Source of the DNA: Pirellulales bacterium
GTDB lineage: Bacteria; Planctomycetota; Planctomycetia; Pirellulales; Thermoguttaceae
Assembly: GCA_016931995.1 (NCBI GenBank)
Contig: JAFGDS010000055.1
Span: forward strand, 1 to 35,460
Direction: 5' to 3'
DNA length: 35,460 nucleotides
Shown: in pieces, positions 16,970 through 26,966 of the stretch
How positions within the stretch are numbered: position 1 is the stretch's first letter
How the letters are laid out: each line of letters starts with the position of its first letter
The notes under the pieces: model-generated
The model's input: only the letters and a program-made list of their open reading frames with translations
Database searches by the model: none
What the model was told of the DNA's origin: nothing
Made by a program: the position numbers and the translations under genes

Positions 16970-18355
16970 TCATTGTTCGCTCAAAAGCCGCCGCTCTTCC
17001 TCGGGGTCGAGCTCGTGGCGCAGGGCCATGGTCTGGCGGGAGAGGACGCCGTTGCGCAGAAGGATCTGGTCCGCTTGGGTCTCCTTGAGGCGGTCGCGCA
17101 CGGCCAGCGTCGGCGGGATCGCTTGGATGGAGACGGATGCCAGGGCCTCGCGCGGCAGCCGGCCGGCGGCCACGGCGTGGGTGAGCACGCGGTCCAGCAG
17201 TTCCAGGTCGTCCTCGATCATGTCGTGCTGCAGCCGGGCGAACATCTTCACGGCGGGTCCCTCGGCCACCATGGTCGAGGCGTAGTTGGCGTTGCTCGCG
17301 TCGCTGGTGAGCATGAATTCCGGCATGACCAACCGCGCGGCGATCGCGCGGAGTTCGGCCTGGAGCACGGCCACGTACCGGCTCACGTCCAGACCGATCG
17401 CCGGGAACTCGTACTCCGTGCCGCCCAGCGCGTCGAGGATCGTGCCGGGGGCGTAGCGGCGAACGTGGCTCGCGCGGCCGGTTCGGGGATCGGCGGCCGT
17501 GGCGTCGGCCTGATGCTGGACGAACTGCTCGATGCTGGCGCGGGTACCGGCGTGGTGTTTTCGGATCAGGGCGATGGCCGATTGGATTTCGGCGACGACG
17601 CTCATGTTGCGAAGGAGTTTTTCCGCCCGGCGGAGGTTTTTGCGGACGGGATAGAAGAGCGGCAGGCCGCGGCGGACGTTGGCGTCGACGTTGGCCTTGC
17701 GGTGCTGAATCTCCGCGGCGTCGACGAGGCGGCCGTCGAGGAAGTAGCCCAGCACGGTTTCGACGTCGTCGGGCTCGGTGAACACGCCGAAACGCGCGGC
17801 CGGGTCGCCGGCCCGCTCGGGCGGCGCGGCCACTTGCGAGGGCTCGACGAACCGCACCCGGGCGACGCCGTCGTCGGCCCCGAAGAGCCGGAGGAAGACC
17901 TCGCCGTCGCGGTCGCGGCGGCGGACGATCTCCTGCTGGCGGTTGTGCCAGCGATTGACGCGGACGAAGTCGTCCAGTAGGGCTTGAACGGCGTCCACCA
18001 TTTCCGCGGAGGGCTGGTGTCCCTTGCGCACGGCGGCGCGGTAGCGGTGGCCGGCGCCGACGATGTAGCTCACGCGGTTCTCGTGGCCGTTGATGGCGAA
18101 CTCGTTTTCGGCGGCCAGGGCGCGGCACTGGGCGCGGATCGCATCGAGCTGCGTCTCGTCGGCCGGCAACGATTCGCTCCCGCCGGGCGAGCCGTCTCGG
18201 CCCAAGAGCCGCCAGCGCGTGCCGTCGTCGTCCAGCAGGGGTTCGGCCGGATCGACGAACGTGTCCCAAAGCTCGTCGAAGGCCTCCATCAGTCGGCGCT
18301 CCCAGCGGGCGGGGCGGCGGGGAGCGTGGTTTTGGCGTTTGGAGGGGGTGGACAT
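16970..18355 (-). CDS. phage portal protein (lambda-type)
   Basis: The product is 461 residues. The ATG at 18355 (MSTPSKRQ) has GAAAGG about 8 bases upstream; the frame is open further but only through AATGACCAA repeats. Portal proteins form the dodecameric ring at one capsid vertex through which DNA is pumped by the terminase. The diagnostic stretch is IQHRKANVDANVRRGLPLFY (about residues 216-235), then PVRKNLRRAEKLLRN and VVAEIQSAIALIRKH. This matches the HxR...RGvP...L...RxL..aE pattern of lambda-family portals. The gene directly follows the large terminase in transcription order, the usual phage arrangement, but nothing phage-like follows it. The prohead protease and capsid expected next are absent. 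Confidence 0.82.
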   Translation of the reverse strand: MSTPSKRQNHAPRRPARWERRLMEAFDELWDTFVDPAEPLLDDDGTRWRLLGRDGSPGGSESLPADETQLDAIRAQCRALAAENEFAINGHENRVSYIVGAGHRYRAAVRKGHQPSAEMVDAVQALLDDFVRVNRWHNRQQEIVRRRDRDGEVFLRLFGADDGVARVRFVEPSQVAAPPERAGDPAARFGVFTEPDDVETVLGYFLDGRLVDAAEIQHRKANVDANVRRGLPLFYPVRKNLRRAEKLLRNMSVVAEIQSAIALIRKHHAGTRASIEQFVQHQADATAADPRTGRASHVRRYAPGTILDALGGTEYEFPAIGLDVSRYVAVLQAELRAIAARLVMPEFMLTSDASNANYASTMVAEGPAVKMFARLQHDMIEDDLELLDRVLTHAVAAGRLPREALASVSIQAIPPTLAVRDRLKETQADQILLRNGVLSRQTMALRHELDPEEERRLLSEQ

Positions 18356-18394
18356 GGTGGGGGCCTTTCGTGTTGGTGGCGTGAACGGTGAAAT

Positions 18395-18567
18395 CACAAT
18401 GACCAAGTCCCAATGACCAAAGAAGGACCAATGTCTTAATGACCAAAGAAGGACCAATGTCTTAATGACCAAAGGACGAGGCCACACTTCTCGGCGATGG
18501 AATACCTCCCTTGAGCATTAGTGCTTTGGACATTCCTTGGTCATTGTGGTTTGGTCATTGGTCATTC
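18395..18567. repeat. inverted pair of AATGACCAA short-period arrays
   Basis: The left half (about 18395-18478) is a run of AATGACCAA-like units including two near-identical copies of AAAGAAGGACCAATGTCTTA. The right half (about 18513-18567) reads in the opposite sense (TTGGTCATT units). Transcribed, the two halves can pair into a long imperfect hairpin. The right end touches the TGA of the large terminase gene at 18570. No gene is supported here. Confidence 0.8.
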
Positions 18568-18569
18568 AT

Positions 18570-20192
18570 TCACCCCACGGCGAGCCGCTGACCGAGGCCG
18601 TCGTCGATGGGCAAGCGGGTGATTTCCAGGGCCAGACGCAGGGCCATTTCGGCGGCATCGGGGCCGTCGTCGTGGTCGGCCAGGGGGAATTCGCGAAGCT
18701 GTTCGACCAGAAGCCGCGTGGAGGGCGAATCGCTCTTGAACCGCACGCGGCCTTGGGCAAGATACGGCCCCAGCCGGCGGATCCGGACGTGTTTGTGGAC
18801 GTGGTTGTCGATCATCCACGGGTGGACGCCCAGGAGGTCCCGCCGGCGGAACGCGTCGTGGAACTGGCCGGCCAGAAGCTCCTGGAACTGATTGGCTTCA
18901 ACCCCGAAGGCGTCGGGCCGGAAGCGGCGGTAGAACTCCACTCCGGCGGCGACCATTTCGGGCGTACCCCGTCGGGCCAGGTCCGCTTCGAAGTGCAGGA
19001 TCCCCTGCCGGTCCACCCCCAGCGCCACCAGGGCGGAGAAGTCGCCCCGCCGCGCGTCCGCGCCCTTGCTTGGGTCCAGGGCCAGCGTTTTCACCTGTAA
19101 GTGCTCGGGCCACTGGTCAAACCAAACGGTTTCGTCGAAGTACGATTCGGGCCATTCGCACTCGTCGGGGTCGATCGGTTCGTTCTGCTTTTCGCGGGCG
19201 AAGGCGGTCGTGCCGCTTTCGGCTCTCATGCACATCAGCGCGTACAGGTTCTCCGCTTCGGGCCAGAGCACGACCGCGCCGGCGTGCATGGCCTGGCGGT
19301 TGCGCACGTAGAACGCGCGGGCGTCCTCGACCGCGCGGGGATTGCCCGGATCGGCATAGAGCGCGCCCCACGCCTGCCAGAGCGTTTCATTGACCGGCCA
19401 GCGTGGGATCGAGCGGAAGACGCGGGAGATCCAGCCGGGCGTGCGGGCAAGCTCCATGGCCAGGGCGTCGCGGTGCAGGGCGGTGGCCAGGTTGACGACG
19501 TTCGTCTCGGGGGTGCCGGCCTTCAGGAGCGTGCCGTGGAACCATTCCCGGGCCCTTTGCCGGGCAAGCCGCGAGTGGATGTGCCGATCGTTCTGCAGGT
19601 CGTCGCAGATAATGAGCGAAGGCCGCCGGGCGCCGCGGCGCCGCCCGCGGACGGCCTGGCCCGTGCCAAACGCCTCGATCGTCGCGCCGTTACCCAGCAC
19701 GATGCCCCCACGGCGCCACGTGCGCCCACGGCCGACCGCCTCGGGATAGTCGGCCGCGAGGCGCGGGTTGTCGGCCAACTCGGTCTTGACGTTTTCCAGA
19801 TGCGCTCGGGCTTGATCTTGCGTGTCGGAGACGATCCAGATGTACGGTTCGCGGGCTTCGACGGCGGCGCGGAGCGGAAAGGCGAGCGCGGCCAGCGTCG
19901 ATTTGGCGCTGCCGCGCGGGCCGAGCACGTTGAGCTTCACGCCCGCGTCACGGGGCATCCGGTCGAGATGATGGGCCAGCCAGCGGTGCATTGCCGAGGC
20001 GGGGCGGGAGAAATGGTCTGGAAGGTAATGACGCCCCCACGAGAGAAGATCGCGGCAGCCGCCGCACACCCGCAGCCGGCGGCGGACGCAGGCGTGCCGC
20101 TGGGCCAACTCGGCGTAAACCATTGCCGCGAGACTGCCCACCTGCACGGAACTCAACTCACATTCGGCGAAATCCACGTCAATTTTCGGCAT
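18570..20192 (-). CDS. phage terminase large subunit
   Basis: The product is 540 residues. It is the ATPase-nuclease motor that cuts and packages phage DNA. Visible motifs are a Walker A-type GPRGSAKST (91-99), Walker B LIICDD (193-198), and the C-terminal RNase-H-like nuclease with D373 (LALDPSKG), GDFSALVALG, E432 (GVEANQ) and the DHDDGPDAAEMA block (507-518). All three nuclease acidic positions appear to be present, so the protein may be active. N-terminal C35, C43 and C46 could form a small metal site. The ATG overlaps the end of the small terminase-like gene by 14 bases, indicating translational coupling. Confidence 0.93.
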   Translation of the reverse strand: MPKIDVDFAECELSSVQVGSLAAMVYAELAQRHACVRRRLRVCGGCRDLLSWGRHYLPDHFSRPASAMHRWLAHHLDRMPRDAGVKLNVLGPRGSAKSTLAALAFPLRAAVEAREPYIWIVSDTQDQARAHLENVKTELADNPRLAADYPEAVGRGRTWRRGGIVLGNGATIEAFGTGQAVRGRRRGARRPSLIICDDLQNDRHIHSRLARQRAREWFHGTLLKAGTPETNVVNLATALHRDALAMELARTPGWISRVFRSIPRWPVNETLWQAWGALYADPGNPRAVEDARAFYVRNRQAMHAGAVVLWPEAENLYALMCMRAESGTTAFAREKQNEPIDPDECEWPESYFDETVWFDQWPEHLQVKTLALDPSKGADARRGDFSALVALGVDRQGILHFEADLARRGTPEMVAAGVEFYRRFRPDAFGVEANQFQELLAGQFHDAFRRRDLLGVHPWMIDNHVHKHVRIRRLGPYLAQGRVRFKSDSPSTRLLVEQLREFPLADHDDGPDAAEMALRLALEITRLPIDDGLGQRLAVG

Positions 20193-20676
20193 CGTCGGGC
20201 TCCTGCTCTTCGACCTCGGGAGGTTCTTCCACCAGGGGCGACCGGAGCTTCGTGGTCAGATTGCGAAACTGCCGCAGCACGGCCTTGCGGTACTTGGGCA
20301 CGGGGACCTCCTCGGAGACGATCTGGGCGAAGCGGTTCAGGAGGGCCCGGATCTGGTCGATCGAGATGGCCCCCGCCCGGCCGGAGCCGTAGCGGCTTGG
20401 GTGGCACCGCTCCAGCGCCCAGGCGGCGGCCCGCCAGTACTTCGGCTCCATGGCCGCCTGGCGGATGTGCTGCATGAGGGTGATTTCAGAGGCTTGCTCG
20501 GCACGGTCGATTTGGGCGGCGAATTCCGGGTCGCGCCGGGCGGTGTAGCCGATCGTGCTCGGCGCGCAGCCGACGTACAACGCGGCGGTCCGCCGGCTGC
20601 AGCCGACCGACAAGATCGCCAGGATCTCCCGCTTCTTGAATGCGTCCAGCACCGGACGCCTGCCGCATTGGGCCAC
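20179..20676 (-). CDS. small terminase-like DNA-binding protein
   Basis: The product is 165 residues. Residues about 14-52 form a helix-turn-helix (KKREILAILSVGCSRRTAAL, then VGCAPSTIGYTARRDPEF) like that of many small terminase subunits, which recognise the packaging site. A helical middle (ITLMQHIRQAAMEPKYWRAA) and an acidic C-terminal tail follow. The GTG at 20676 is chosen because GAGGAG lies seven bases upstream. The 14-base overlap with the large terminase gene supports the role. The alternative is a general phage transcription regulator. Confidence 0.72.
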   Translation of the reverse strand: MAQCGRRPVLDAFKKREILAILSVGCSRRTAALYVGCAPSTIGYTARRDPEFAAQIDRAEQASEITLMQHIRQAAMEPKYWRAAAWALERCHPSRYGSGRAGAISIDQIRALLNRFAQIVSEEVPVPKYRKAVLRQFRNLTTKLRSPLVEEPPEVEEQEPDDAEN

Positions 20677-20701
20677 GGGGGGCTCCTCATGTCAAATGAC
20701 G

Positions 20702-20818
20702 AATGACGAAATCAGAATGACGAAGGAAGGACGAAGCACGAATGACGAAGGAATGCTCAAGGACCAAGCACCAATGACCAAGGATGTTCCAATCCCTAAT
20801 CCCCAATCCCTAATCCCT
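20702..20818. repeat. direct repeat copy 1 (AATGACGAA array with CCCTAATCCC tail)
   Basis: About 117 bases: AATGACGAA-type units, then GGAATGCTCAAGGACCAAGC, then a tail of CCCTAATCCC units. A closely matching copy is at 22029-22138 in the same orientation. The two bracket the ABC-GNAT gene, whose stop codon (TAG at 20810) lies inside this copy. Confidence 0.85.
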
Positions 20819-22018
20819 CCCTCCCACGTACTCGAACGACACGACGGCGCGGCCGGGGGAGCCGCGGTAGTTGTGGATGAATCGCCGGGTGTTTTGCGAA
20901 CCGGTCTTACGGACGCCGATGGCCCGCCAATCGGGCGAGCGACGGCAGTGGGCCAACAAGGCGGGGTGGCTGGCCGTGACGTTCACGCGCTTGCCCGCAT
21001 CGCGGTACATTTGGGCGATCGTTTCGAGCACGCGCATGCCGATGCCGACGCCCTGGAAGTCGGGGAGCGTCACGATCCGGCTCACACGCCAGCGTCCGCG
21101 GCGGCCAATGAGCGATACCATCGCGCAGAAGGCCACCGGCGCGTCGTTCCACACGGTCAGGTAGCACTGCGCGCCGGTGCTCAGCGAGCCGGCTAGATAG
21201 TGATGACGCGCAAAGCGGGCCCACGCGTTTCGGCCGCAACGGTAGATTTCCAATCGGATGGGCGGTCGCCAAAGACGCCTCCTTGTGAACCGTCCCGTGG
21301 CCACGTCGAGCACCCAATCGGGCGCGAGCCACTCGGTCACGTCGTAGTGGCACGTCACGGCCACGAACTGGCAGGGGATCCGGCCCGAACGAATCGCCCT
21401 GGCCACCGCCGCCGACCCGACCCGCGCCACCGTCCGATCGACCACGCTGGTGAATTCGTCGAAGGCGACCAGGGGGACGAGGACGGAAGTGGGAGGTCGG
21501 AGGTCGGAGGTTGGAACGCGGCGGTCGGAATGTGTCGGCTGATCCGACCCCCCAATTCCGACTTCCGACTTGTCGTTTCCGACTTCCGACTTCCGACCTC
21601 CGACCTCCGTCGCTTCGGCCAGCGCTCGGGCCAGATCGCAGCGGAACCGTTCGCCGCCGGAGAGGACGTGGTACGGCTTGATCCAGCTCGGGGGCGAGCT
21701 GAAGCCCACGGCGGTCAAGAGGCCCGTGATCTGCTTGATCGGCAGGTCTCCGAGGCAGTCAATCACGGCGCGGTCTTCGGGCCAGGATTGCCGCTCGACC
21801 AGCCGCGGGCCGAAGAGCTTCCGCGCGAGCGTGCTCTTGCCGCTGCCCGACGGACCGACGACGAGACCGATCTGCCACGGCTCGTCCAACTCGGGCATTT
21901 CGACGCAAAAGCGCTCGGTGGCTCGCTCCTGGATCGGCACGTCGAACAATCCGGCGACCTGGCGGACGCGGAACGAGTCGAACACGGGGCAGGAGACAGT
22001 GGTTTCGAGGGTTCGCAT
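20810..22018 (-). CDS. ABC-type ATPase fused to a GNAT acetyltransferase (Mom-like?)
   Basis: The product is 402 residues. The N-terminal ABC ATPase has Walker [10 protein letters not shown] (55-63), signature LSGGERFR (119-126), Walker B LVAFDEF (183-189, E188 catalytic) and H224 (switch histidine). The C-terminal half (about 255-402) is a GNAT fold with HHYLAGSL (272-279) and the acetyl-CoA loop [11 protein letters not shown] (317-327). There is no membrane domain, so it is not a transporter. Phage Mu Mom, which modifies adenine in DNA, is a GNAT-fold protein; similarity of the HYL and FQGVGIG segments makes a DNA-modification role a reasonable guess only. Residues about 137-179 are translated repeat DNA inserted between signature and Walker B. 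The last codons and the stop also come from repeat DNA. The start ATG at 22018 lacks a clear ribosome binding site. Confidence 0.8.
21485..21610. repeat. GGAGGTCGG / CCGACTTCC repeats inside the ABC-GNAT gene
   Basis: Short-period units GGAGGTCGGAGGTCGG (about 21491-21510) and their inverse CCGACTTCCGACTTCCGACC (about 21560-21610) form an inverted pair within the coding region. Translated in frame they give [11 protein letters not shown] and [10 protein letters not shown], which are unlike the conserved ATPase around them. Confidence 0.8.
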
Positions 22019-22028
22019 CGCGGGGAGG

Positions 22029-22138
22029 AATGACGAAGCCAGAATGACGAAGGAAGCCCAAAGCACGAATGACGAAGGAATGTTCAAGGACCAAGCACTA
22101 ATGACCAGGAACTCCCCAATCCCCAATCCCTAATCCCT
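22029..22138. repeat. direct repeat copy 2 (AATGACGAA array with CCCTAATCCC tail)
   Basis: About 110 bases, matching 20702-20818 almost throughout (GCACGAATGACGAAGGAATG, then CAAGGACCAAGCA, then CCCCAATCCCTAATCCCT). It lies between the start of the ABC-GNAT gene and the stop of the ParB-like gene at 22146. Confidence 0.85.
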
Positions 22139-22145
22139 TTCCCCC

Positions 22146-22703
22146 TCACAGCGTCAACAGCCGGCAGGCGAGTCCTTCGGCGGTGAAGCGATCAAACAAC
22201 GCGCGCTGTTGGCTTTCGTCGTCGCATTCAATCACCACCTGGAAGCTTTCGGGCACATCGATCTCGGGGGGCAGCGGGTAAGGGGCCAGGGGCGGGATCG
22301 GGGGCTCGGACAGGAGGTTGTCGAGGACGCGCCGGGCGGCGTCGTTGTGAATCTCGAGATTCGCCGCCAGATCGGCCAGCACGTCGCGATCGGTCCCGGC
22401 CAACGCGGCAAGCGGATCCAAGAGGGCCAGCAGCTTGGCGGCTTCCTGGTCGTCCAGGTCGAGCACCAACACGGGCACGTCGGCCTCGGGCGTGGTCTCG
22501 GCGCGAAGGTGGCCGTCGATCAGTTCGAGCGACCCGTCGGGCAACTCGCGGGCCAACAGGGCGTCGGCGTAGCCGATCTCGGCCAAGAGACCCCGCAGGG
22601 CGTCGCGTTGGCCCGGCGGGTGCGTCCGCCAGTTTCTCGGATGCGGGCGAAGCGTCGCCGCCTTGACGCGGCGGAGTTCCTTGATGCGGTCGCGGATGTT
22701 CAT
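22146..22703 (-). CDS. ParB-like (ParB/Srx fold) protein
   Basis: The product is 185 residues. The first 75 residues carry the ParB-like nuclease domain pattern: VKAATLRPHPRNWRTH, then GYADALLARELPDG and LIDGHLRAET (61-70), where the GHLRAE box corresponds to the nucleotide/phosphate loop of the fold. Phages often encode such proteins beside terminase or DNA-modification genes, where members act as nucleases, CTPases or DNA-binding partners. The second half (about 85-185) is helical then beta and is not recognised; it ends in a possible small domain (FQVVIECDDESQQRALFDRF). The start has only a weak ribosome binding site. Position next to the ABC-GNAT gene suggests a shared function. Confidence 0.78.
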   Translation of the reverse strand: MNIRDRIKELRRVKAATLRPHPRNWRTHPPGQRDALRGLLAEIGYADALLARELPDGSLELIDGHLRAETTPEADVPVLVLDLDDQEAAKLLALLDPLAALAGTDRDVLADLAANLEIHNDAARRVLDNLLSEPPIPPLAPYPLPPEIDVPESFQVVIECDDESQQRALFDRFTAEGLACRLLTL

Positions 22704-22729
22704 TGCGGCTGTTCCGGGGTTGCATGTTG

Positions 22730-22797
22730 GATGTAGGAGGCGACTCCTGTCGCCGATGGCTCGGATTGCGGTCGGCGACGGGAGTCGCCTCCTACAG
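22730..22797. repeat. palindromic repeat (GGCGACTCC / GGAGTCGCC)
   Basis: The inverted repeat has arms TAGGAGGCGACTCCTGTCGC and GGCGACGGGAGTCGCCTCCT about 15 bases apart. The right arm matches 691-716 near the left end of the window. It fills the gap between the ParB-like gene and the stop of the small membrane protein gene at 22809. Confidence 0.85.
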
Positions 22798-22808
22798 TTT
22801 GGGGCGTC

Positions 22809-23066
22809 TCACCCCATCAGGTCCCTGAGTCGCTCCCCGATCTGCGCGATCTCGACGTTGTGGGTTTCGAGCTTGGCCTCGTGCTGGGCGTGGACGGCCC
22901 AGAGGCGGTCGTGGATTTCGGACGTCTTATCCACCTTCCTGCAAAGCGCGGTCACCTGGCTGGCCAGCACGGCCAGCTTGGCGTGGACCATGAACATCCA
23001 CGGCCCCAGCGCCAGCACGCCGGAGACGCAGACGCCCACGAGGAGGCTCCATTCGGAGACGGACAT
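22809..23066 (-). CDS. small membrane/coiled-coil protein of the phage module
   Basis: The product is 85 residues. One hydrophobic helix (about 6-28, WSLLVGVCVSGVLALGPWMF) is followed by a long amphipathic coiled-coil (LAVLASQVTALCRKVDKTSE, then HEAKLETHNVEIAQIGERL). GGAG lies about 14 bases before the ATG. Many phages carry a small single-helix protein of this shape (holin-like, or an Rz-like spanin component), but no specific motif supports either. The family is not recognised. Confidence 0.65.
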   Translation of the reverse strand: MSVSEWSLLVGVCVSGVLALGPWMFMVHAKLAVLASQVTALCRKVDKTSEIHDRLWAVHAQHEAKLETHNVEIAQIGERLRDLMG

Positions 23067-23112
23067 GGTCGCGCATCTCCATTACGGTGGCGGGTGTATC
23101 TTGTGGGAAAGC

Positions 23113-23235
23113 TCCAATGACCAAGTTACAATGACCAATGACCAAGGAATGCGCCAAGCACCAATGATTTGTCATTGCGTCCTTGGCACTTCTTTGGTCA
23201 TTGGTGCTTGGTCATTGGTCCTTACTCATTACTCT
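23113..23235. repeat. inverted pair of AATGACCAA / TTGGTCATT arrays
   Basis: The left half holds AATGACCAATGACCAAGG; the right half holds TTGGTCATTGGTGCTTGGTC and TTACTCATTACTC. The right end contains the TAA stop of the next minus-strand gene (23229-23231), so that gene's stop codon comes from the repeat. Confidence 0.8.
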
Positions 23236-23900
23236 TTCGTTATGGCCACCGACCGTTCCCGGTTCGGGCTGGCCGCGACGCCTTGGGGCTCCTCGGAGGG
23301 GCGGACGCCGTGGACGATGGGCACGCGCTTCGCGTCGCCGCCGAAGCTGGCGCACATGTCCCACATCTCGCAGAGCGACCCGTAGAGCATCAGCGACTCG
23401 CGCGGCGTGATCCGGTACGTGGCGAACCGGCTATCCAGCCGCGTGGCCTCGACGATGTGCTGGTCCAGGGCGGTGACGAACATCCGCGCGTCGACGTTGC
23501 GCAGGTCGATCGCCTCAAGAGCCGGGATGTTCGGGTCCGTGCCGTCGAGCTTGTAGGGCAGGTCGAACTCGCGGCCGGTGGGCCGGGCCACCTCGTCGCC
23601 CGCCGGACTTTGCGCGTTCACGTCGTCCGGCAACGTCACGCTCAAATCCTTCGCCCGATCGACGAGCGTTTGGATGTCCACGTTCTGCGGGTTGTGGGTG
23701 ATCTTGCGGCGCAAGAGGTCCAGCCGCAGCAGGTGCTCCATGATGAACTGGTTGGTGGCCGTGTCCCAGCCGCTCTGGACGCCGAACTCGCCGTCCTGGA
23801 GGATCTGGCCGCGGAATGTCAGCGCGTGGCCCACGTACGTGTGGACCGACCGGTTGCGGAACCGCGTGATCGCGTCTTGGAAGGTGTCGATGCCTGGCAT
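23229..23900 (-). CDS. unrecognised 223-residue protein of the phage module
   Basis: The ATG at 23900 has AAGGAG nine bases upstream; the frame is open further but only through the CCCCAAAT tandem repeat. The product is soluble, mixed alpha/beta, without signal peptide or membrane segment. Recognisable features are few: MPGIDTFQDAITRFRNRSVH at the start, a stretch rich in Asn/Asp in the middle (DVNAQSPAGDEVARPTGREF), and MLYGSLCEMWDMCASFGGDA near the C-terminus. No family is recognised. In a phage packaging cluster it could be a head-completion or connector-like protein, but the sequence does not show this. Confidence 0.6.
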   Translation of the reverse strand: MPGIDTFQDAITRFRNRSVHTYVGHALTFRGQILQDGEFGVQSGWDTATNQFIMEHLLRLDLLRRKITHNPQNVDIQTLVDRAKDLSVTLPDDVNAQSPAGDEVARPTGREFDLPYKLDGTDPNIPALEAIDLRNVDARMFVTALDQHIVEATRLDSRFATYRITPRESLMLYGSLCEMWDMCASFGGDAKRVPIVHGVRPSEEPQGVAASPNRERSVAITKE

Positions 23901-23932
23901 GAGGGGGCTCCTTGGGGAAAGGGGGGGAAGGG

Positions 23933-23998
23933 GATTTAAGGATTTGGGGATTGAGGGATTTGGGGATTTGGGGATTTGGGGATTTGGGGATTTGGGAC
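23933..23998 (+). repeat. GGGGATTT tandem repeat with G-quadruplex potential
   Basis: Six or more tandem units of GGGGATTT, with a few variants at the left end. At least five tracts of four G separated by ATTT meet the standard G-quadruplex pattern on the plus strand, and the unit resembles ciliate telomere repeats. It lies 33-98 bases upstream of the ATG of the 223-residue protein, on its template strand. Confidence 0.85.
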
Positions 23999-24007
23999 GC
24001 GGGGGGC

Positions 24008-24105
24008 CGCTTGCGGCTTCGCACTTCCGAATTCCGTGCAACGCTCAACGGATTCTCCGCTTCGCTCAGAATGACAGTGCTCCTAATCTCGAAATCCCTA
24101 AATCC
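24008..24105. repeat. mixed repeat fragments before the trypsin-like gene's stop
   Basis: CCGCTTGCGGCTTCGCA (also at 13105-13127), then half of the GAGCGAAGCGAAG element (complement at 24047-24077), then AAATCCCTAAATCCCTA at 24092-24108. The TAG stop of the next gene (24106-24108) is inside the last unit. No gene is supported here. Confidence 0.7.
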
Positions 24106-25587
24106 CTACTCTCTCTTCTCAATGGGCTCCGCCGGCGTGGGCGCGGCGTCGTGGATGCGGTGGAAGCGGTCGGCCACGCGGCGGCGGAGGTCGCGGGCCC
24201 AGCGGGCCAGCGCGCCGTCGCTGCTTTGTTCCGCCCGGCGCAGCTCCTCGTCGTATTCCCGCCCCAGCGTCACGTCGCCCAGCGGACTGCGGCCCGACAG
24301 GGCGTACACCTCGGCCAACTGCCGGGCGTAATCGTCGTTCAGCGGCGCCGCGGAGAGCGGAGGATCGTTGGTCGCGTTGGGCACTTCGTGTTCTGGCTTC
24401 CGCTTTCCGCTTTCGGCTTTCCGCTTTCGGATCACCCGACGAAGGATCCACGCGGCTGCCAGCACGGCCAGCGAGGGTGGGGTGGTCCAACCCAGGGCCA
24501 CCAGCACGCCGGGCAGGATCGCCTCGGCGGCCTTTCGGCCCACGGCCACGGCCGCCGCGGGCACGCCGCGCTGGGCCAGCGCCGCGGCCAGGTCGGCTTT
24601 CAGGTCCGCCTTCAGGCGATCGGCCAGACGCTGCTCGAGCCGTTCGTTCGCCGACACAAGCCGCTGGCTCACTCGCGCGGCAAGCGATTCTTCATCCACT
24701 TCGCGGGCAGGCGGGGGCTCTTCGATCTTGTCAAGGACCGTTTCGATCGCATCGAGCCGGCGGGCAAGCGCGGCGAGCTTTCCGGAAGAGGCGTCCTCGG
24801 GCGTCACGGGCGGCGCCGCGGGCGACTCGCCCACTGGTCCACCGCTTTCCGCGTTCGGCTTTCCACTTTGCCCGTCCGGGGCGACGGGCGCCAGTCGCCG
24901 CCCCGGCCGTATCGCGCCGAGAATCGCGGCCAGAAACTGCCGGATCCGGCCGCAGTACGTGCCGTTGACCCTCCGTCCGTCGGTTCCCCAGACGACGGCG
25001 ACCAGTTCGCCGCGGGCGTTGAGGACGGGCCCGCCGGAATCGCCGGGCCGGGCCGCGCCGGAAAGCTCCAGCGTCTCGCGACCCCCGGCGCCGCCCGCCT
25101 GAACGTAACCCCGCGCGGCGCCTTCGTTACAGCGATACCGACCATCGGGTCCCCAGCCGCAACTGCGAAGCGGTTCGCCCGGCCGGGGCGCATCCCGCGC
25201 GATGGTTACCGGCTGGGCGGACACGGGCGCGATCGCCAGGGCGGCCAGGTCCCATGTCGGGTCGGTCGCCAAAAGTTTGGCCTCGAACGCTTGCCCATCG
25301 GCAAAGGCCACGCGGATCGCGCCCGCGCCTTCGCGGAACAGGTGCGCGCAGGTGAGCACGACGGAGCGTCGGTCGTCGGTGGCCACGAGCGTGCCCGAGC
25401 CAAGATTGGCGCCGGGCGGCACGGCGTTTTCAATCCGGACGACGGCCGGATGGGCGGGCTCGTACACGGGGCAACCGCCGCCGAGGCACTGCGCGGTGGT
25501 CGATCGGGTCGCCATCGTCGCGGCGATAACCACCGCGGCACAGGCGAGCGTGGCGAGGGCGTGTGGGGAGGGGTGAGGGTGGGGCAT
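24106..25587 (-). CDS. membrane-anchored trypsin-like serine protease
   Basis: The product is 493 residues. A signal peptide (about 9-33) precedes a chymotrypsin-fold domain with the complete triad H82 (LTCAHLF), D113 (TWDLAAL) and S184 (GDSGGPV). A helical region at about 268-345 is likely a coiled coil (LAALARRLDAIETVLDKIEE, then ERLEQRLADRLKADLKADLA). A hydrophobic segment at about 355-383 ends in a basic anchor (ILRRVIRKRK), and the C-terminal 90 residues would be cytoplasmic. An extracytoplasmic protease attached to the membrane is inferred. Two low-complexity patches (about 238-251 and 388-400) are translated short-period repeats. A chymotrypsin-fold protease is unusual in a packaging cluster. 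The start lacks a clear ribosome binding site but is required for the signal peptide. Confidence 0.82.
   Translation of the reverse strand: MPHPHPSPHALATLACAAVVIAATMATRSTTAQCLGGGCPVYEPAHPAVVRIENAVPPGANLGSGTLVATDDRRSVVLTCAHLFREGAGAIRVAFADGQAFEAKLLATDPTWDLAALAIAPVSAQPVTIARDAPRPGEPLRSCGWGPDGRYRCNEGAARGYVQAGGAGGRETLELSGAARPGDSGGPVLNARGELVAVVWGTDGRRVNGTYCGRIRQFLAAILGAIRPGRRLAPVAPDGQSGKPNAESGGPVGESPAAPPVTPEDASSGKLAALARRLDAIETVLDKIEEPPPAREVDEESLAARVSQRLVSANERLEQRLADRLKADLKADLAAALAQRGVPAAAVAVGRKAAEAILPGVLVALGWTTPPSLAVLAAAWILRRVIRKRKAESGKRKPEHEVPNATNDPPLSAAPLNDDYARQLAEVYALSGRSPLGDVTLGREYDEELRRAEQSSDGALARWARDLRRRVADRFHRIHDAAPTPAEPIEKRE
24402..24438. repeat. CTTTCCGCTTTCGG repeat inside the protease gene (site 1)
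   Basis: Units of CTTCCGCTTTCCGCTTTCGG encode KRKAESGKRKPEH on the minus strand, directly after the predicted membrane helix. Confidence 0.7.
24838..24878. repeat. CTTTCCGCGTTCGG repeat inside the protease gene (site 2)
   Basis: The same kind of unit as at 24402-24438 (CGCTTTCCGCGTTCGGC, then TTTCCACTTTGCCC), encoding QSGKPNAESGG in the linker after the protease domain. Confidence 0.6.
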
Positions 25588-25627
25588 GGGGTGGGTGTGG
25601 GTCGATGGTGATGGGAGGGTCGGTTGG

Positions 25628-25772
25628 AAATGACGAAGGTCGAAATCCGAATGTCGAAGGAATGACGAATGACGAAGCTCGAAGCACGAGAGGACTTCGG
25701 GCGCGCGGTTGGTCATTCGTGCTTTGACATTCGTGCTTCCTTGGTCATTGTGGTTTGGTCATTCTGGTTTCC
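25628..25772. repeat. inverted pair of AATGACGAA / TTCGTCATT-type arrays
   Basis: The left half holds GGAATGACGAATGACGAAGC; the right half holds TTGGTCATTCGTGCTTTGAC and TTGGTCATTGTGGTTTGGTC. It ends six bases from the stop codon (25778-25780) of the papain-fold gene. Confidence 0.8.
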
Positions 25773-25777
25773 TTCCC

Positions 25778-26362
25778 TCACGGTTCCAGCGTGAATCGGT
25801 ATCGGTAAAACGGCGAGCGGGCGAGGTCGGCGGGCTCGGTCAGGCGGTCGGCCAGATGGGGCACGGGGTCCACGCCGCCGCCGACCCGCTCGGCCATGGC
25901 CACCGCCTGCGAACAAAACGGCGGCCGGCGGTTGTATGTCTCGTCGTTGGTCGCCGCGCGGATCCAAAGCCGGATCCACGGCAAGTGCACCAGCGCGGCG
26001 GCGGCCAGGTTGACCCAGCCGTATTGGCAGCCGGCCAGACGGCGCATGAATCGCGACGCGGCGGCGCGGTCGTAGTGCCGCCAACGGTTCTGCGGATTCA
26101 CTTGAAAGACGTCAATCCGTGCGGGAAAGCGATCGACCTGGCTGGAGAGCGTCACGGCCCGGCCGCCGACCCACTCGCGGATCTCCAGGCAGAACAAATC
26201 GCCTTCCCACCACGCGGCCTTCGCGGCGTGGCTATGGACGCCGCGCCCCGCCGCCGCGATGAGCCCTCGCCGGCGAAACAACAGCAGATCGCCCTCGGCG
26301 ATCCGCCCGCGGGCTTTCGCGTAGGGGAGGACACGTTCGGGCGGGGCGTGGGGTTCGGACAT
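25778..26362 (-). CDS. YiiX-like permuted papain-fold cysteine peptidase
   Basis: The product is 194 residues. The pattern is that of the YiiX/YebB (permuted NlpC/P60) group: RIAEGDLLLFR (20-30) leads into GVHSHAAKAAWW with H45 as the likely catalytic His, and PPFCSQAVAMA (148-158) carries C150 as the likely nucleophile; the circular permutation explains His before Cys. Relatives cleave amide bonds in lipids or cell-wall peptides. No signal peptide is seen. In a phage-like module a lysis or cell-entry role is possible but not shown. The start ATG has no good ribosome binding site. Confidence 0.72.
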   Translation of the reverse strand: MSEPHAPPERVLPYAKARGRIAEGDLLLFRRRGLIAAAGRGVHSHAAKAAWWEGDLFCLEIREWVGGRAVTLSSQVDRFPARIDVFQVNPQNRWRHYDRAAASRFMRRLAGCQYGWVNLAAAALVHLPWIRLWIRAATNDETYNRRPPFCSQAVAMAERVGGGVDPVPHLADRLTEPADLARSPFYRYRFTLEP

Positions 26363-26401
26363 GGAGGGGTTTGGGGTCGGTGGTGATGCGAGGGTTGTGG
26401 G

Positions 26402-26540
26402 AAATGTCGAAATCCGAACGTCGAAGGAATGACCTAATGACGAAACTCGAAGGACGAAAGGACTACGAACGCGATTTTCGTTATTCGTGCCTCGACATTC
26501 GTGCTTTTTTCGTCATTCTGGTTTCGTCGTTTTGGTTTGT
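26402..26540. repeat. inverted pair of short-period arrays reading into the HTH gene
   Basis: The left half holds AATGTCGAAATCCGAACGTC and ATGACGAAACTCGAAGGACG; the right half holds TCGTCATTCTGGTTTCGTCG and ATTCGTGCCTCGACATTCGT. The right half lies inside the 3' end of the minus-strand HTH/zinc gene and supplies its last 20 or so codons and stop. Confidence 0.75.
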
Positions 26541-26966
26541 GCTCGCGTCCCCAGGCGGCTGGCCGCCGGTCGCGTGCCATTCGCCGTCGCGCACGCGCCG
26601 GGCGTGGATCGCCTGGTAGCGACGCAGGTGTTCGCCGCGGAGTTCCAGGCGGATCGGTTCGGCGAGACAGGGCGCGAGGTGCAATCGTTGGTGCAGTCGC
26701 CGTCGGGCGATGCGCCGCCGCGCGCGGCAGAGTTGGCAGGGCATGCGGACCCAGCCTCCGCATTGCGGGCAGCGTCCGATGGGACCGCGCGGCACGAGGG
26801 CATCGTCTTCGTCGGGCAGATTCGGTTTCGGATCGCGGCGCCGTCCGTTGGACACGGCGGCCACCGTGCCGCGGCTTACCTTCAGCAACGCCGCGATCCG
26901 CCGCTGGCTCAGCGTGTCCTCGGCCAGGAGCTGGCGAATCCGGTCGATGACGCCTTGAGAAAGCAT
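26481..26966 (-). CDS. helix-turn-helix / zinc-ribbon protein, first gene of the phage module
   Basis: The product is 161 residues. Residues about 3-43 form a resolvase/Fis-like helix-turn-helix (VIDRIRQLLAEDTLSQRRIA, then LLKVSRGTVAAVSNGRR). A CPQCGGWVRMPCQLCR zinc ribbon follows at about 66-81. An arginine/histidine-rich region lies after it. The last 20 residues or so (TNQNDETRMTKKARMSRHE) are a translation of the AATGACGAA repeat, so the original C-terminus was probably shorter. It is likely a DNA-binding regulator of the module. It starts just after the pdxA terminator. Confidence 0.72.
   Translation of the reverse strand: MLSQGVIDRIRQLLAEDTLSQRRIAALLKVSRGTVAAVSNGRRRDPKPNLPDEDDALVPRGPIGRCPQCGGWVRMPCQLCRARRRIARRRLHQRLHLAPCLAEPIRLELRGEHLRRYQAIHARRVRDGEWHATGGQPPGDASTNQNDETRMTKKARMSRHE

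Follow-up and report, generated by a model that had tools for sequence, protein, structure and literature searches.

A candidate gene transfer agent of Pirellulales whose packaging and capsid genes lie apart in a Thermoguttaceae genome

We analysed a 35,460-nt stretch of DNA, hereafter the window, which is the whole of contig C96 (JAFGDS010000055.1) in the 5.43 Mb, 153-contig genome of a Pirellulales bacterium of the Thermoguttaceae (GCA_016931995.1). Positions 16970-26966 of the window carry ten open reading frames (ORFs), all on the minus strand and all open. On the evidence of sequence comparison, this module is probably one half, that for packaging, of a phage-particle cluster domesticated by its host, a candidate gene transfer agent (GTA) of Pirellulales that is split in this genome.

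The lambda-family portal protein (16970..18355, minus strand like all module genes; ORF as listed to 18487) matches Pfam PF05136 (E 6e-22), and a search of the same genome for the viral-type portal family PF05133 returned nothing. Upstream of the portal gene lie those for the large terminase subunit, TerL (18570..20192; phrog_38, E 2e-78), the small terminase subunit, TerS (20179..20676; phrog_4102, E 3e-15), an ABC ATPase-GNAT fusion with relatives 43-68% identical (20810..22018, ORF as listed to 22126; phrog_11143, E 8e-97), and a ParB-like protein (22146..22703; phrog_620, E 1e-9). The catalytic motifs of TerL are conserved, with the key residues of Walker A identical in 27/27 aligned copies, and the Walker B aspartates and the acidic residues of the nuclease identical in 29/29. 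Among 40 stretches taken from relatives, 32 carry the portal gene; ParB is near full length in 22 of these 32 loci and partial in two more.

Farther upstream, an 85-aa protein with an N-terminus that resembles a membrane anchor by eye (22809..23066) has relatives in 6/32 loci and no useful profile match. The next gene encodes a 223-aa accessory protein (23229..23900, ORF as listed to 24041) that matches no Pfam or PHROG profile and is 78% identical to its copies in L045 and L067. Two peptidases of different folds follow. One is a trypsin-like protease with a signal-like N-terminus (24106..25587, ORF as listed to 25716; PF13365, Trypsin_2, E 5e-21), found in 7/32 loci. The other, a 194-aa protein (25778..26362) found in 10/32 loci, has no Pfam match; its structural model (mean predicted local distance difference test score, pLDDT, 67.8) is similar in a Foldseek comparison to 3kw0 (E 2e-4, TM 0.64) and more weakly to 2if6, and its His, Glu and Cys residues are kept in 10/10 aligned copies. 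By predicted fold, it is a permuted papain-fold NlpC/P60 (YiiX-like) cysteine hydrolase and a candidate release or lysis enzyme. The outermost gene encodes a protein with two CxxC pairs and weak helix-turn-helix (HTH) matches (26481..26966; relatives in 7/32 loci), which may regulate the cluster. For the portal, ABC-GNAT, 223-aa and trypsin-like proteins, the true starts are probably the nearer ones (18355, 22018, 23900 and 25587, respectively), the listed ORFs being too long at the 5' end. Neither integration nor replication genes nor a transposase were recognised among the ten module genes with Pfam and PHROG profiles, and a 270-aa ORF gave no profile match worth using.

Thus, the first-pass annotation, made from the letters alone, was borne out on the ten intact frames, on the identities now backed by profiles (portal, TerL, TerS, ParB-like, ABC-GNAT and trypsin), on the two unlike peptidases and on the key residues of TerL. 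Its statement that lysis genes are absent is doubtful, as the permuted papain-fold protein could form a lysis pair with the 85-aa protein, which is small and membrane-like.

The same annotation saw no capsid, tail or integrase gene; none is seen in the window, and capsid and tail genes lie on other contigs of the same genome. A capsid profile search of this genome found one intact copy (E 1.6e-226) on contig C32 (10,038 bases), which holds genes for protease/scaffold, cement, capsid, LamG and tail completion up to the contig end, and C53, a 3.2 kb contig, has one more conserved gene of the tail region. A capsid orthologue matches Pfam Phage_capsid_4 (E 1e-13); this match was used in place of the predicted capsid structure, whose mean pLDDT of 42.7 was too poor. 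A tail gene matches Tail_completion_gp17 (E 5e-9) and the cement protein has a weak profile match; profile searches returned nothing for t139 and t286, both tail genes, or for the large fibre-like genes. The window continues for ~17 kb past the portal without a capsid block, and C32 has >3 kb before the capsid block without a portal or terminase match; therefore, the separation of portal and capsid is more than a contig break. Here the cluster breaks off behind the portal: the capsid block is on C32 and the further tail-region gene on C53. Of ten ORFs scanned in the window flanks, three have Pfam matches, all to host genes (PdxA, class IV aminotransferase, HD). The intact capsid block speaks against both the recent truncation and the use of packaging functions without a virion that had been proposed from the window. 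The 223-aa protein, tried as a capsid candidate, was rejected, since the conserved capsid is encoded by another gene, on C32, and the gene of the 223-aa protein was clustered in only 4/43 regions.

A degenerate repeat with the core TTCGTCATTC was observed in the module, mostly between genes (window positions 20701-26518), in nine copies, with none in the rest of the window. Five copies surround the capsid block (L076, that is C32, 4820-6772), and there are 50 genome-wide, 36 of them elsewhere. A binomial estimate for this clustering is very small, but the core and the boundaries were picked after viewing the data.

Among 99 genomes of the order, this one included, 74 have a portal match and 75 a capsid match, mostly in single copy. 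Close portal copies are 50-79% identical, and a few (G075, G091, G076) 30-36%. Both genes occur in 70 genomes, and in 30 of these they are adjacent, the capsid directly after the portal; in five they are on the same contig but apart or rearranged, and in 35 on different contigs, some surely through assembly fragmentation. In G065, whose chromosome is closed, portal and capsid lie ~62 kb apart. The portal occurs alone in four genomes and the capsid alone in five, while 20 of the 99 have neither.

Gene order around the portal is shared widely. ParB, ABC-GNAT, TerL and portal follow in this order on one strand in 22 of the 32 portal-bearing loci. The full ten-gene order, for which the first-pass annotation had suggested a search in related genomes, occurs only once (1/32, L067), and nine of the ten genes are in order in L034 and L046. 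In seven other loci from several families, a subtilase gene upstream of ParB takes the place of trypsin (e.g. L042:13608-14633). By ORF clustering, the companions of the portal are protease/scaffold-like (20/32 loci), cement-like (16/32) and capsid-like genes (18/32), then small tail genes; in L036, the protease/scaffold-cement-capsid block precedes TerL. The order is best read as HTH regulator, permuted NlpC/P60 hydrolase, protease, small membrane-like protein, ParB, ABC-GNAT, TerS, TerL and portal, followed by a small protein, protease/scaffold, cement, major capsid, in some cases the LamG protein, and head-tail and tail genes. No tape-measure-like gene is seen among the tail genes, as judged by gene sizes and with no profile search made, which suggests a short tail. 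One portal copy may be interrupted: that of G015 (L107 and L108, G015:C4:46000-85999) matches in two parts ~10 kb apart.

Among the best 80 of 143 stretches of named genomes that encode the capsid, all are planctomycete-named, many of them Pirellulales or Thermoguttaceae, and cultured carriers include Bythopirellula polymerisocia, Botrimarina colliarenosi and Aeoliella straminimaris. In Aeoliella, a single run extends from ParB to the capsid and includes TerS, and Botrimarina has the same run without a TerS match; in Bythopirellula, the two halves run in opposite directions. In a phylum scan, the capsid was matched in 9/199 genomes, six of them outside the order, where matches have E 7e-49 or weaker except in G290 (4e-79) and G139 (1e-50). 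Additionally, four genomes of another family of the class (L326, L327, L328, L331) have protease/scaffold, cement and capsid genes ~30-50% identical in the same order, possibly a sister element.

Inheritance was assessed by Mantel tests on pairwise identities, with 19 to 30 genomes each. The RpoB set kept the incomplete G068 (frameshifted) and G088 (390 aa), and the distant copies of G075 and G091 were not in the set. Correlation with RpoB was 0.739 for the portal, 0.633 for TerL, 0.745 for the capsid, 0.689 for cement and 0.613 for ABC-GNAT, and for all of these and ParB, 0/1000 permutations were as high as the observed value. Trees were compared for 29 of the 30 RpoB genomes (G033 was left out, having no portal in its loci). 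The packaging tree has 8 and the capsid tree 13 of 26 splits in common with the RpoB tree, where shuffled labels gave maxima of 3 and 4, and the packaging and capsid trees have 10 splits in common. As far as these comparisons go, co-inheritance with the host is clear but imperfect, and some exchange of the cluster between lineages is likely.

Nonsynonymous to synonymous substitution ratios (dN/dS) were calculated for thirteen pairs of the same genus or nearby. YN00 did not converge in many pairs; where it did, values were 0.02-0.27 (portal 0.05-0.10, TerL 0.02-0.12, capsid 0.02-0.06), the highest belonging to the protease/scaffold of one pair. NG86 values, invalid for TerS in G078/G094, reach 0.43 in one distant pair. 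No value is near 1, the level that would have indicated the relaxed selection raised in the first-pass annotation. A stop in the best-match frame, with frames not trimmed to true starts, was rare, at 4/74 portals and 1/75 capsids. The core of the cluster is under purifying selection. Of the possibilities raised from the window alone, that of a maintained element fits best with a core that occurs across the order, evolves under purifying selection and is inherited along with the host.

The flanks of the cluster also recur across families. An endonuclease/exonuclease/phosphatase gene lies upstream in seven loci of six families (raw counts, with uneven flank length), and 10 loci from six families have a Cro/CI-type HTH gene near the cluster, on the opposite strand and usually downstream (e.g. 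L100:12139-12693); this gene is a candidate host neighbour or regulator. In 4 of these 10 loci, the HTH gene is accompanied by a PolB-type exonuclease gene. Because these genes recur across families, the flanks point to one ancestral site, the counts being raw and carrying no chance level.

According to the excerpted text of PMC9662315, GTAs have proteins derived from tailed phages that form phage-like particles, package mostly random host DNA, are fully endogenised, often at several loci, do not fully package their own genes because the head is too small, are inherited mostly vertically and co-diversify with the host, and deliver DNA to other cells. Two of these six features are seen in the Pirellulales sequences: endogenisation at several loci (C96, C32 and C53 in this genome, with host genes in the window flanks, and halves ~62 kb apart in G065) and co-inheritance with the host. 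A third, the phage-derived particle proteins (portal, TerL, TerS, capsid and tail completion), is present by homology alone; we therefore regard the cluster as a GTA candidate and not as a proven member. The genes kept (TerS, TerL, portal, scaffold, capsid and tail completion) are what a DNA-filled head needs. Given the dispersal of the cluster, joint packaging of its genes in split genomes is unlikely; a split cluster could not move as one piece, so the packaged DNA would be mainly other DNA, most simply the host chromosome.

In the mechanism that we infer, a host signal, perhaps acting via the HTH protein, would turn on the separated genes together; scaffold, capsid and portal would build the head, TerS and TerL would load it with pieces of the host chromosome, and a tail bearing LamG adhesins would be joined to it. 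The protease with its signal-like N-terminus and the cysteine hydrolase, both at the cluster front, possibly with the small membrane-like protein, would aid in opening the envelope, and the particles would bring DNA to related cells. An order-wide, mainly vertically inherited GTA candidate is the best explanation of these data. We lean slightly toward the fuller proposal of a working GTA that was domesticated independently in Pirellulales before most family splits. Such a GTA would have an envelope-opening set of its own (trypsin or subtilase together with the permuted NlpC/P60 hydrolase), a tail that is probably short and, in many members, genes dispersed across several sites on the chromosome; part of the database 'planctomycete viruses' would belong to it.

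The closest known systems are RcGTA and the other alphaproteobacterial type I GTAs (Rhodogtaviriformidae), which, in the part of PMC9662315 that describes them, likewise have phage-derived head, packaging and tail genes, are co-inherited with the host order, are kept intact and often occupy several loci. In this comparison of features, the Pirellulales cluster differs in belonging to another phylum, in its own set of ABC-GNAT, ParB, trypsin or subtilase and permuted NlpC/P60 genes, and in showing, by gene sizes only, no tape-measure-like gene; its production and transfer are predicted. FpGTA of Faecalibacterium, as described in the excerpted text of PMC12946183, is similar in having GTA-like genes in two separate operons, near-ubiquity in its host group and a host outside Alphaproteobacteria, and is called podovirus-like; by that description it is genus-level, belongs to Gram-positive gut bacteria and has observed packaging of host DNA, whereas the Pirellulales cluster is order-level and documented by sequence. 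A predicted prophage of Zavarzinella formosa with an RcGTA-like TerL, as described in the excerpted text of PMC7947584, resembles the Pirellulales cluster by description as a planctomycete phage element in a GTA context; it comes from one genome and is termed an intact prophage.

Relatives in phage collections are remote. TerL matches 190 phage records at ~35% identity at best, of which 122 are Pseudomonas phages, and many of these phages are, we presume, transposable and Mu/B3-like; unlike such phages, the module has no recognised transposase or replication gene. ABC-GNAT has phage matches of up to 39% identity, the portal one weak match, and the capsid none among 50,697 phage records at E 1e-5. 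IMG/VR holds 261 contigs that encode a capsid relative, and many of the best 80, in which cluster content was examined, carry pieces of the cluster. A separate Mu-like prophage region is present on C51 of the same genome (L333, L336; G000, ~2.6-24 kb), with its own portal (Portal_Mu, E 3e-22), TerL (phrog_2) and ParB, as well as PAPS reductase, methyltransferase and IstB-like ATPase genes. In contrast to the cluster, its TerL was matched in only 3/99 genomes, namely its own, one at 50% identity and one weakly. The LamG protein of this prophage is 71% identical to that beside the C32 capsid, suggesting that LamG has been exchanged between the two.

Several observations weigh against a vertically inherited GTA. 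The correlation with RpoB is lower for ParB (0.396) than for portal or capsid, and weaker for the protease/scaffold (0.429, with 1/1000 permutations as high); only 8 and 13 of the 26 splits are shared with RpoB. The dN/dS of the window genome against G027 is 0.13-0.34, by NG86 only. Neither C32 nor C53 gave a match to the small tail genes t71, t177 and t139, the front genes vary (hydrolase in 10/32 loci, trypsin and the HTH protein in 7/32 each), and the cluster is dispensable, given the 20/99 genomes with neither gene. The capsid of G290, outside the order, is as near (E 4e-79) as the most distant in-order copies (1e-77 to 5e-83), and the IMG/VR contigs with capsids ~46-53% identical could include true viruses. 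Furthermore, particles, random packaging and transfer are here predicted from gene content.

A rival explanation is an ordinary temperate phage family specific to Pirellulales, of which the window would hold one broken member scattered by rearrangement. Every recognised part is phage-derived, the 261 IMG/VR contigs and the LamG protein shared with the co-resident prophage would suit such a family, and host-specific phages can co-diversify with their hosts too. Capsid and tail genes do adjoin the module in relatives (30/70), an arrangement that the first-pass annotation had named as refuting its reading; the element there nonetheless looks more GTA-like than prophage-like. Three quarters of the order have it, usually as a single copy in each genome, both separated halves are intact, flank genes are common across families, and the TerL of the co-resident prophage, a control, occurs in 3/99 genomes. 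Integration, excision, replication or lysogeny genes beside virion genes, as a prophage would carry, were not seen in the ten genes and window flanks, the flanks of relatives not having been profile-scanned for integrases. We therefore consider a temperate phage unlikely. A phage particle kept for a use other than DNA transfer (protein delivery, killing of rivals, or a defective particle released at cell death) is distinctly less probable still: conservation and selection show retention and not its reason, and a secreted-type protease with a cysteine hydrolase is an unusual pair of companions, but the conserved terminase motifs and portal would be needless in a DNA-free particle. The window on its own, with no virion gene after the portal, would suit a packaging-only element or a phage satellite (of the kind of phage-inducible chromosomal islands) living without its own capsid. 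We rejected the packaging-only element, and give this account hardly any credence, since this genome has the capsid block, 30/70 genomes have it next to the portal, and the module holds no recognised integrase or satellite-type regulator.

In the excerpted text of PMC12946183, the formal classification of GTAs covers mainly Alphaproteobacteria and Brachyspira. No Pirellulales GTA is described in the titles and abstract openings listed by the literature searches, which is no proof that none has been published. Viral databases hold host-inherited particle genes, as the IMG/VR contigs with pieces of the cluster illustrate, and the LamG protein common to the Mu-like prophage and the cluster would, if the exchange is true, be a natural case of phage-GTA exchange. 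Characterised GTAs come from few groups, and Planctomycetota have unusual envelopes. An order-wide GTA in this phylum would, if confirmed, add another case in which a phage particle was domesticated independently, and would provide Pirellulales with a concrete route of gene exchange, testable in cultured strains.

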